A stretch of DNA of 33,217 nucleotides, from positions 1 through 33,217 of the IMG/VR virus record IMGVR_UViG_3300031841_001366. One strand, written 5' to 3'. This document shows, piece after piece, positions 7,725-11,872 of the stretch. This DNA is from a virus. Position numbers and translations under genes: made by a program. Positions within the stretch are counted from its first letter, which is position 1, and every line of letters starts with the position of its first letter. The notes under the pieces were generated by a model, which searched no databases, was not told the DNA's origin, and was given only the letters and a program-made list of their open reading frames with translations.

Positions 7725-7988
7725 ATGGTACATGATTTTTTAGTTTTATTTGTTTTGTTTGGAATGTTTTTTGGGTTGCTTGGTGTGGTTGGTTGCATTG
7801 TCCAAATAATTAGGATTGAAATGAAAGAAAAAAGAGATAGAGCAACAAAGGAAACAAATGCAAAAATAGAGTTACTTGAATTTATGGCAAGTCAAACAGA
7901 TGAAAACGAGTATTTCAAAATGTGCGATGAATTAGGGCTTTGTAGTAAATCCTCAGTAACTGAAGTAATTCTTGGTATTGAAAAATAA
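7725..7988 (+). CDS. Single-pass membrane protein, 87 aa
   Basis: Residues about 5-29 are a strongly hydrophobic helix (FLVLFVLFGMFFGLLGVVGC), followed by a basic and then acidic helical cytoplasmic-type domain. Only three bases separate it from the previous gene. Its stop codon ends exactly one base before the first hammerhead ribozyme. The function is unknown. Confidence 0.65.
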   Translation: MVHDFLVLFVLFGMFFGLLGVVGCIVQIIRIEMKEKRDRATKETNAKIELLEFMASQTDENEYFKMCDELGLCSKSSVTEVILGIEK

Positions 7989-8047
7989 GATTAGCTGAAG
8001 ATGGCTTTATTAGCCGAAACACCCAATATTTTTTGGGTGTCCTAATC
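7989..8047 (+). ncRNA. Type I hammerhead ribozyme 1
   Basis: Full hammerhead architecture. Stem I is GATTAG (7989-7994) with CTAATC (8042-8047), 6 bp. The core CUGAAGA (7995-8001; consensus CUGANGA) is followed by one extra U (8002). Stem II is GGCU (8003-8006) with AGCC (8012-8015). The second core strand is GAA (8016-8018). Stem III is ACACCCA (8019-8025) with UGGGUGU (8034-8040), 7 bp, extendable by one. Cleavage is expected after C8041 of the GUC triplet. Stem I is the open stem, so this is type I. An extra base between A9 and stem II is known from the chrysanthemum chlorotic mottle viroid hammerhead. The 3' product would begin 25 nt before ATG 8067, and its CTAA/TTAG ends can refold into a small hairpin. 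Confidence 0.9.
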
Positions 8048-8066
8048 AAATTAGAAAGGTAATAAA

Positions 8067-8636
8067 ATGAGTGAAAAAAACGTAGTTATCAAAACACAAA
8101 AACCAACCGATGATGATATTAAAATGGTCATTAAGGCTGGGATTACACATAGTTTAGAGCAAGAAAAAATGGCTCAAATCATTGTTGCTGATATTGTTAA
8201 TATGAATAAACAACATTGCACTACTAAAATGACTAGGGCTTTAGATGACATTTTTGCTAATGGAGAGGCTGAAGAGATAGACAATACAAAAAAGTTTGTT
8301 AAAACTCAGCTTCAAACTATCATTAAATCAAAAGCCGTTCAAACAGCTTTATTAGGTGAAGATATTAAACTAAAATCTTTGACTATTAAAAAAGTAAACA
8401 ACGGGGTTTTAGATGGTGATAAGTGCCTAAATAAAGACAAATTCCAAGATAAGCATTTAGGTTTGTTTAGGGTTATAATTGAAAGCAAAAAAACAACCCC
8501 AAAGTCATTTGATGAAGAGCTAAATAAACTCATGGAGAAACATGGCAAACATGCAAACGACCTAATCAGTAGTGCTTTAAATTGGTTATCAGTGGAACAG
8601 ATAATGGAGGAATTAGAAATAAAACAAGTAGCATAA
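8067..8636 (+). CDS. Early protein of unknown function downstream of ribozyme 1
   Basis: A 189-aa, charged, mostly helical protein starting MSEKNVVIKTQKPTDDDIKM. It has no cysteine cluster, membrane segment or recognisable motif. The C-terminal half (FDEELNKLMEKHGKHANDLI) is helical. It is the only gene between the two ribozymes, so cleavage at both would release a short transcript carrying this gene alone. It has AAAGG upstream of the ATG. Its size and early, ribozyme-isolated position suggest a protein needed in an amount different from its neighbours; that is inference. Confidence 0.75.
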   Translation: MSEKNVVIKTQKPTDDDIKMVIKAGITHSLEQEKMAQIIVADIVNMNKQHCTTKMTRALDDIFANGEAEEIDNTKKFVKTQLQTIIKSKAVQTALLGEDIKLKSLTIKKVNNGVLDGDKCLNKDKFQDKHLGLFRVIIESKKTTPKSFDEELNKLMEKHGKHANDLISSALNWLSVEQIMEELEIKQVA

Positions 8637-8642
8637 TCCTGT

Positions 8643-8702
8643 ATTATACTGAAGATGACCTAATGAGGTCGAAACAGGGGTTTTATATCCCCTGTCTATA
8701 AT
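8643..8702 (+). ncRNA. Type I hammerhead ribozyme 2
   Basis: Stem I is ATTATA (8643-8648) with TATAAT (8697-8702). The core is CUGAAGA (8649-8655) plus the same extra U (8656) as in ribozyme 1. Stem II is GACCU (8657-8661) with AGGUC (8666-8670), loop AAUG. The second core strand is GAA (8671-8673). Stem III is ACAGGGG (8674-8680) with CCCCUGU (8689-8695), 7 bp. Cleavage is expected after C8696 in GUC. All three stems differ in sequence from ribozyme 1 while pairing perfectly, so structure rather than sequence is conserved. Cleavage would leave a 21-nt leader carrying the GGAGGA ribosome binding site of the gene at 8718. Confidence 0.92.
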
Positions 8703-8717
8703 TTGGAGGAATTATTT

Positions 8718-9296
8718 ATGAACTTAAAACAAATTGAGAAATCAAAGCTATTTCAAGATGATTGGAATAATTGCACTGTAATTGCCTCATCAATAGCTTT
8801 TAATTTAGATTATGACAAAACAAGCCGATTTTATACCCTACATGGTAGAAAATGGAGAGATGGTTTATATCATTGCGATACTGATAGAATCATCAAATTA
8901 CTAGCCGAGCAAGAGGGTTATGAGGTTGATTTTTTTGCCTTTGATAAACATGAGGCAAAAATATTAAAAGGCGTTTATAATTGGAAAAGAGGAAAATTTA
9001 TAAAAAGACCTCATTTTCAGCGTTATAAATTCCAAGCTGATAAAAAGAATCCAATGGATTTAATGACCTTAACTCACAATCTAACACCTAACAATCAGCA
9101 TATGTACTTAGAAAGAGGTGATTATATTTTAGGCTGTCAAGGTCATGTATTAGCTGTTAAAAATGGATTTGTGGAAGATTGGACAGAGGGTAGAAAACAC
9201 AGAATAAATAAAATTTGGAAGATAACCAAAAAAGATAAAAAAGTTAAATCTTTAACTTTTTCAGAATACTTCAATAATAGAGAAAGGTTGTTCTAA
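8718..9296 (+). CDS. Putative papain-like cysteine protease-fold protein
   Basis: A 192-aa protein. I chose ATG 8718 because GGAGGA lies just before it; an upstream in-frame TTG at 8703 would sit on that ribosome binding site and inside ribozyme 2. Cys19 lies in NNCTVIASSIAF at the start of a helix. His143 lies in CQGHVLAVKNG and Asp154 in FVEDW. The order Cys-helix, late His in a GHxxAV strand, then Asp is that of papain-like folds found in small phage proteins. The family assignment is by pattern only, and activity is unproven. AGTTAA palindrome copy 2 lies inside its 3' end. It is preceded directly by ribozyme 2. Confidence 0.6.
   Translation: MNLKQIEKSKLFQDDWNNCTVIASSIAFNLDYDKTSRFYTLHGRKWRDGLYHCDTDRIIKLLAEQEGYEVDFFAFDKHEAKILKGVYNWKRGKFIKRPHFQRYKFQADKKNPMDLMTLTHNLTPNNQHMYLERGDYILGCQGHVLAVKNGFVEDWTEGRKHRINKIWKITKKDKKVKSLTFSEYFNNRERLF
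9242..9257. repeat. AGTTAA-N4-TTAACT palindrome, copy 2
   Basis: Core AGTTAA ATCT TTAACT with perfect A/T flanks that make a near-24-bp palindrome (9238-9261). It lies within coding sequence, reading Lys-Val-Lys-Ser-Leu-Thr, about 40 bp before the gene's stop. Confidence 0.75.
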
Positions 9297-10925: not shown

Positions 10926-11252
10926 ATGTTAAAGGAAAAACAAAAGATAGCATATCTTGAAACAAAGCAGTACCAAAAAGATTGTACTGAGTTTAATAAA
11001 GAACTATGTGATTTATTATCTGAATATGTAAATAGCATGAGCCAATTAAAGTTTGATAAATTTTCTGAGGTTGTGCTACCTACTGTATTAATACATCATA
11101 TTAGTAATTATTTTGAACATAATCTTATAAAAAATGAGGAGTCTTTAGATGCTTTTGTTGGCAGTATAAAAGACACCATAATGGATAATTGTGGCATAGA
11201 GCATGAGTGCAATGATTATAAATTCATTGAGGACTTGGGGGCGATTGCATGA
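10926..11252 (+). CDS. Helical protein of unknown function, 108 aa
   Basis: Follows GGAG by a few bases. It starts MLKEKQKIAYLETKQYQKDC and is helical and acidic throughout, with several scattered Cys and His residues but no spaced metal motif. It overlaps the methyltransferase start by 4 nt (ATGA), so the two are probably co-translated. Confidence 0.6.
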   Translation: MLKEKQKIAYLETKQYQKDCTEFNKELCDLLSEYVNSMSQLKFDKFSEVVLPTVLIHHISNYFEHNLIKNEESLDAFVGSIKDTIMDNCGIEHECNDYKFIEDLGAIA

Positions 11253-11872
11253 ATGTATTAGAATTGTTTGCAGGTTCAAGATCACTTTCAAAAGTTGCAG
11301 AAAAATTAGGTCATAATACCTTTACATCTGATATTAATAACTTTGATAAGATTGATTATGTAACTAATATAATGGACTTCAACCCCAAGAAAGTACCATT
11401 TCAACCCGACTTTATATGGGCATCTGTACCTTGCTATACATTTAGTGTAGCATCTATAGGTCATCATTGGAAAGGGGGCAACAGAAGTTATACACCTAAA
11501 ACCTCAAGTGCATACATGGGATTAGCTATAGCCAAAAAAACTATAGAGATTATAAATCACTTCAATCCTAAGTATTATTATATTGAGAATCCTAGAGGAC
11601 TATTAAGAAAGATGGAATTTATGCGAGGCTTACCTAGACATACTATATGGTATTGTCAGTACGGAGACGACAGAGCCAAGCCAACAGATTTGTGGACTAA
11701 TGACAAGTCTTGGATTCCAAAGCCTGTATGTAAAAATGGAAACAAGGATTGCCACCACCAACCTGCACCAAGAGGTAGCAGAACAGGTACACAAGGTCTT
11801 AAGGGTAATTATGAACGCAGTATAGTACCTAGAGACTTATGTTATGATATATTAAAAGATAAGGAGATATAA
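11249..11872 (+). CDS. DNA C5-cytosine methyltransferase-like protein
   Basis: A 207-aa protein. Motif I is VLELFAGS (residues 3-10) for S-adenosylmethionine binding. Motif IV is WASVPCYTFSVAS, with the Pro-Cys catalytic pair. Motif VI is YYIENPRG, using ENP rather than the classical ENV. Later sequence contains a Cys/His-rich stretch. It is short compared with full restriction-type enzymes (300 aa or more) and the target-recognition region is reduced, as in several phage versions. It would methylate phage DNA to evade host restriction or mark it for packaging or replication. Substrate specificity cannot be read from sequence. Confidence 0.75.
   Translation: MNVLELFAGSRSLSKVAEKLGHNTFTSDINNFDKIDYVTNIMDFNPKKVPFQPDFIWASVPCYTFSVASIGHHWKGGNRSYTPKTSSAYMGLAIAKKTIEIINHFNPKYYYIENPRGLLRKMEFMRGLPRHTIWYCQYGDDRAKPTDLWTNDKSWIPKPVCKNGNKDCHHQPAPRGSRTGTQGLKGNYERSIVPRDLCYDILKDKEI

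Follow-up and report, generated by a model that had tools for sequence, protein, structure and literature searches.

Prophage genes flanked by hammerhead ribozymes have been known since 2011 (Perreault et al. 2011, PMC3088659), and the purpose of hammerheads in prokaryotes has been called an open question (PMC6155905). That question arises again in the viral record IMGVR_UViG_3300031841_001366, where two hammerhead-like folds enclose one small gene: what would a phage gain from two self-cleaving RNAs at this place? The whole record (33,217 bases, hereafter the window) was analysed. It was assigned to a tailed phage on account of its genes for terminase, major head, primase-helicase and tape measure; no DNA similarity of the window to isolated phages was found. 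The two folds, named RZ1 and RZ2, and the features around them are the following.

7725..7988, + strand: gene A, 87 aa; its TAA stop codon (7986-7988) adjoins RZ1, and unrelated genes stand in its place in several relatives.
7989..8047, + strand: RZ1, type I hammerhead with the same extra U as RZ2 (at 8002), predicted cut 8041/8042; from the descriptor parse, covariance model R1 and covariation.
8042..8696, + strand: gene B mRNA, the 655-nt RNA that would be freed by both cuts together, deduced from the two predicted cut sites.
8067..8636, + strand: gene B, 189 aa, no assigned function (weak match to phrog_38379); bracketed by RZ1 and RZ2 in every ribozyme-bearing relative.
8643..8702, + strand: RZ2, type I hammerhead with an open stem I, predicted cut 8696/8697; from the sequence, the descriptor parse, model R1 and covariation.
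8643..8648, + strand: 5' strand of RZ2 stem I, AUUAUA in the sequence, invariant in eight relatives.
8649..8655, + strand: RZ2 core C3 to A9, CUGAAGA (N7 = A), read from the sequence.
8656, + strand: extra U of RZ2, between A9 and 10.1 in the sequence; the same site is found in relatives with or without the U.
8657..8670, + strand: RZ2 stem II, GACCU (8657-8661) with AGGUC (8666-8670), loop AAUG; double changes in 3/5 pairs among relatives.
8671..8673, + strand: RZ2 core G12 A13 A14 (GAA), read from the sequence.
8674..8695, + strand: RZ2 stem III, ACAGGGG (8674-8680) with CCCCUGU (8689-8695), 8-nt loop; double changes in 4/7 pairs.
8696..8702, + strand: C17 (8696), then the 3' strand of RZ2 stem I (UAUAAU, 8697-8702), at which the downstream product is predicted to begin; read from the sequence.
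8698..8715, + strand: hairpin predicted for the downstream product, its loop containing most of the ribosome-binding GGAGG (8705-8709); the prediction is the same in 8/8 relatives, sequence nearly invariant.
8718..9296, + strand: gene C, 192 aa, phrog_3754, no assigned function; first gene of the RZ2 downstream product.

The descriptor parse returned two full hammerheads in the window, RZ1 and RZ2. The core order CUGANGA ... GAA-A ... U-H is found between three helices, with one extra U after A9, and the topology is that of type I, stem I being open to the flanks and stems II and III closed by loops. The preliminary description had named a second complete hammerhead at 8643-8702 with this core and these stems, and the sequence, the descriptor and the covariance model all agree. 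It had also listed GUC beside stem III; the triplet is indeed present as the NUH cleavage triplet of RZ2 (8694-8696), but its U is U16.1 and had already been counted within stem III. No match of this quality was obtained in 300 Markov-1 random windows, and the RZ2 60-mer folded 3.3 sd better than dinucleotide shuffles. In free folding, the bare 60-mer paired stems II and III, and stem I was also paired once the flanks were added. Judged by their sequences, RZ1 and RZ2 are type I hammerhead ribozymes with predicted self-cleavage. Outside RZ2 stem I, an internal loop (UGU/UU) followed by UCC/GGA was noticed by eye as a candidate tertiary contact between loop II and stem I.

A covariance model (R1) was built from twelve ribozymes of the more distant relatives, leaving out the window and contigs L001, L002 and L003. 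This search, which the preliminary description had proposed, returned RZ2 (58.4 bits, E=1.5e-13) and RZ1 (63.2 bits, E=6.6e-15) and no other site in the window, and in the contig of each ribozyme-bearing relative it gave exactly two strong matches (E < 1e-11). In contrast, no hammerhead match in the window was obtained with Rfam at the gathering score, and RZ2 remained without any hammerhead match at relaxed thresholds. Neither fold falls within Hammerhead_1 (RF00163, gathering 34 bits), which matched nowhere in the window; a pair of further phage hammerheads, in contig L223, reach 31 bits against the same family. RAGATH-1 (RF03152) has the hammerhead core in common with our folds and matched RZ1 weakly under relaxed thresholds, but at 26.4 bits, far below its gathering score of 56.3, and RZ2 was not listed, so that neither belongs to that family. 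The prophage and phage hammerheads of Perreault et al. 2011 (PMC3088659) are similar in their three-stem fold, in CUGANGA/GAAA/GUC and in the several copies around single phage genes. Unlike them, RZ1 and RZ2 carry an extra U between A9 and 10.1 and stay below Rfam thresholds, form a conserved pair around one gene, have an invariant stem I in RZ2 and are anchored at their start to the upstream stop codon.

Related phage contigs, several of them fragments, were found through gene B. The window and L001 are identical across the block of ribozymes and gene B, whereas gene B identity to the window is 95% in L002 and L003 and about 48-52% in L004 and L012-L017. RZ1 and RZ2 are both present at the same two sites in L001-L004 and L012-L017. 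The absence of any stem sequence common to RZ1 and RZ2 had been read earlier as pairing kept by structure, and the orthologues bear this out, with all cells paired at RZ1 (128/128) and at RZ2 (134/134). Compensatory changes, which had been put forward as a check, were found on both sides of 7/16 pairs in RZ1 and of 7/18 pairs in RZ2, the latter in stems II and III. The covariation score was 0.44 for RZ1 (0.19 in shuffles, <=0.05 with slid partners) and 0.35 for RZ2 (0.13 in shuffles); stem II of RZ2 is shorter in L004 and was set aside there by gaps. RZ2 stem I is the same in all relatives and hence has no covariation support, whereas stem I of RZ1 covaries.

Several relatives have unrelated genes in place of gene A but retain RZ1, gene B, RZ2 and gene C, and after such an exchange RZ1 adjoins whichever upstream stop codon is present. 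The two ribozymes could be relics, passengers of module exchange or selfish sequences with little effect on expression. The swapping of upstream genes at RZ1 fits this explanation, as does the catalytic module of RZ1 itself: its core and stems II and III in the window (7995-8041) are identical at 45/47 positions to those of L013 (1058-1104), while gene B is about 49% identical and stem I and gene A differ, a near-identity that, at the level of sequence, looks like module exchange. In addition, genes B and C of the distant relative L018 (5914-6739) are separated by about 46 nt with no ribozyme between them, a pair that offers a natural control without ribozymes, and therefore cutting is not needed for the gene B-gene C pair as such; the extra U, finally, could be a weakening lesion. 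However, full pairing has been kept through repeated double changes and the core is intact in all relatives, which points to continuing selection, and we regard the relic or passenger explanation as improbable.

The preliminary description had taken the same insertion in RZ1 and RZ2 as a sign of their common descent. RZ1 carries the extra U in the window, L002, L013 and L014 but lacks it in L004, L012, L016 and L017; at RZ2, only the window, L002 and L014 have it. Thus both ribozymes carry it in L014, RZ1 alone in L013, and neither in L004, L012 and L015-L017. As gene B is almost unchanged among L013, L014, L016 and L017, which nevertheless differ in the U, the change is recent and repeated. 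Among other hammerheads, the extra U occurs together with any N7, and in 73 bystander hammerheads lying outside the search patterns, a less biased set, 11 had the U, one had a G and 61 had no insertion. U-bearing and U-free ribozymes are mixed in 23/53 multi-hammerhead loci among the matches listed. Therefore, since the U is gained and lost at orthologous sites and recurs in unrelated phages, it does not mark a shared origin of RZ1 and RZ2, and the claim of common descent does not hold. From the sequences compared, the extra U after A9 is a recurrent phage variant, and it may slow RZ1 and RZ2. De la Pena and Flores reportedly described, in 2001, a CChMVd viroid hammerhead with an extra A in the core between A9 and 10.1. 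RZ1 and RZ2 resemble it in having one extra core nucleotide, but theirs is a U and is located in phage mRNAs. Weak activity was reported for a viroid hammerhead with an extra core nucleotide (PMC11014351). Among the phage contigs, L264 was seen to hold four hammerheads within 1.1 kb (521-1646) among small genes, two with the extra U and two without.

The RNA downstream of the RZ2 cut was then considered. A nearly invariant sequence, UAUAAUU(U)GGAGGAAUUAU, links the 3' strand of RZ2 stem I to the ribosome-binding site, and in 8/8 RZ2 relatives a post-cut hairpin is predicted with most or all of GGAGG in its loop. The predicted probability that GGAGG is unpaired rises on cutting in all eight orthologues, from 0.26-0.85 to 0.79-1.00 (0.26 to 0.80 in the window), and the predicted change at RZ1 is smaller. 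This exposure is predicted from folding thermodynamics for a conserved sequence that shows no covariation. By eye, the UCC upstream of RZ2 stem I can pair with the GGA of the ribosome-binding site in most orthologues, and such pairing would keep the site shut before the cut.

Processing of long phage transcripts by hammerheads has already been proposed, and triple hammerheads around ardA in Agrobacterium were active in cutting in vitro and in E. coli (PMC3088659). For the present locus, we give a probability of about 0.7 to the reading that RZ1 and RZ2 punctuate a polycistronic phage transcript, the predicted cuts parting the messages and freeing the next ribosome-binding site, possibly with coupling to translation. 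While RNA polymerase moved past each gene junction, the ribozyme would fold and cut immediately ahead of the 3' strand of stem I. This would leave an upstream mRNA that ends in the structured hairpins of stems II and III and bears a 2',3'-cyclic phosphate, and a downstream mRNA that starts with a 5'-OH, 21 nt ahead of the gene C start codon (25 nt in the case of gene B). At RZ2, the freed 3' strand of stem I would pair with AAUUAU (8710-8715) ahead of the start codon, giving the hairpin with most of GGAGG in its loop; with this part of the site displayed, the cut should promote gene C translation. Because stem I begins at or near the upstream stop codon, a ribosome terminating there would sit over the 5' portion of the ribozyme, so that gene B translation and cutting should compete with each other. 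The two folds, their covariation and their conserved placement are shown by the sequences; that the RNA is cut, that the messages part, that the ribosome-binding site is exposed and that translation is coupled to this are what we infer. The simplest account would be a separation of the gene A, B and C messages, with translation coupling as a possible addition.

The same elements could instead form a regulated switch. In that case cutting would not act on every transcript but would be set by ribosome occupancy or another signal, so as to change the expression of one neighbour at a particular moment. A stop codon at or in stem I would suit such a switch, as would the predicted sequestration of the ribosome-binding site before cutting in several RZ2 orthologues, and the extra U could slow cutting accordingly. 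Nevertheless, no ligand-binding domain or conserved extension was apparent in the folds and the exposure changes at RZ1 are smaller, which makes a switch quite improbable.

Two same-strand hammerheads flanking one segment could also free the gene B RNA so that its ends are ligated to form a circle. Retrozymes and viroid-like RNAs do this with copies of a single hammerhead, which both cut and are restored where the ends join. The predicted ends would be adequate for it, given that 5'-OH and 2',3'-cyclic phosphate ends suit RtcB-type ligation. However, the stem I strand of RZ2 at the 3' end of the fragment and that of RZ1 at its 5' end can pair at only 1-3/6 positions in eight phages, and with such unmatched strands no hammerhead re-forms at the circle junction. 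Therefore, the locus has in common with retrozymes and other circular RNAs with paired hammerheads the two direct-orientation ribozymes around one segment, but it differs in its two unlike stems I, in a junction ribozyme that cannot re-form and in the DNA phage gene inside, and it is not a member of that class. For other prophage hammerheads, neither spliced nor circular products were detected (PMC3088659), and we consider the circle very unlikely.

It is scarcely credible that the hammerhead resemblance is secondary, with stem III and its tail acting as an intrinsic terminator or the TATAAT in stem I as a promoter -10 box: 8674-8695 is listed by the terminator scan and TATAAT is an exact -10 hexamer, but the terminator and promoter matches are not above shuffles (2 vs 1.2 and 25 vs 24, respectively), no -35 is listed for TATAAT on the + strand, initiation would land at the ribosome-binding site, and the conserved CUGANGA, GAAA, GUC and stem II are left unexplained.

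The proteins encoded by the flanked genes were also compared. The predicted structures of gene B and gene C (pLDDT 67 and 71) gave no significant PDB match, and tblastn of both window proteins against isolated phages gave none. Homologues of gene C, reached through L260 and L264, are present in five isolated phages, in whose records no hammerhead match was found; a strict association of gene C with hammerheads was thus rejected, L260 and L264 themselves having originally been picked up by a hammerhead pattern. Cys19, His143 and Asp154 are conserved in gene C in a pattern like that of papain-type proteases, with no Pfam or structure match in support. Elsewhere in the window (11249-11872), a short gene (207 aa) resembles C-5 cytosine DNA methyltransferases (PF00145, phrog_757), the match covering the N-terminal part of the Pfam model only.

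The placement seen in the window was compared with that of 277 distinct hammerheads among the matches listed, most of whose loci were found by core patterns. The seed patterns demand GG/CC at stem II, so that the counts are samples dependent on them; the figures from scans for the insertion with N7 = C/G/T and for the uninserted core (viral) likewise hold among the matches listed, and adjoining genes are mechanical gene calls. A long open frame ends between -12 and +20 of the ribozyme start in 226/277 cases (82%) among the matches listed, compared to 9% of random positions in the same loci. This figure is inflated by the UGA inside every CUGA core and by the use of core patterns to find most loci. 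The unforced part of this placement is that genes extend right up to the ribozyme. Frequent stop positions are the base before stem I, its first base, its end and the UGA of the CUGA core. An offset of +9, found in 46 hammerheads among the matches listed, fits the core UGA (U4 G5 A6 after a 6-bp stem I) as the stop codon of the upstream gene.

In the window, the stop codon of gene A adjoins RZ1 and that of gene B ends 7 nt ahead of RZ2; stem I of RZ2 follows the gene B stop immediately in the more distant relatives. On the downstream side, a start codon with a ribosome-binding site lies <=60 nt from the cut in 61% of hammerheads, compared to 25% of random positions, and where both lie within 200 nt (<=200 nt) the cut is a median of 32 nt ahead of the start, again among the matches listed. 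All copies are on one strand in 82/82 multi-ribozyme loci among the matches listed. The genes beside phage hammerheads are diverse, and a single named function, an anti-restriction protein (phrog_7245), recurs among the sampled genes. Seven hammerheads each were observed on one strand of the phage contigs L223 and L200, and the whole records G011 and G012 also gave seven strong model matches each. A scan of a genome collection gave at least 117 pattern stretches, with real hammerheads in L149 only among the matches listed. L149 is a 5.3-kb contig in a Streptomycetaceae MAG bin, with three hammerheads by the descriptor and four by R1, and is probably a phage fragment.

A wider proposal, which we put forward tentatively and hold to be doubtful, is that hammerheads form a widespread punctuation code anchored at stop codons, in which the ribosome would hold the ribozyme open, its release would allow the cut, the freed strand would show the next ribosome-binding site, and an extra-U subclass missed by RNA family models would tune the speed. 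What appears to be new is that a conserved pair brackets gene B, that the U insertion recurs in phages (with respect to the open-licence literature), that the ribozymes are anchored to stop codons, that cutting is predicted to expose the ribosome-binding site and that Rfam has a blind spot for these ribozymes. Standard RNA family models miss many phage hammerheads, whose number and role are consequently underestimated. With a conserved pair, compensated stems, a stop-linked position and a predicted refolding at one locus, the purpose of hammerheads becomes directly testable.
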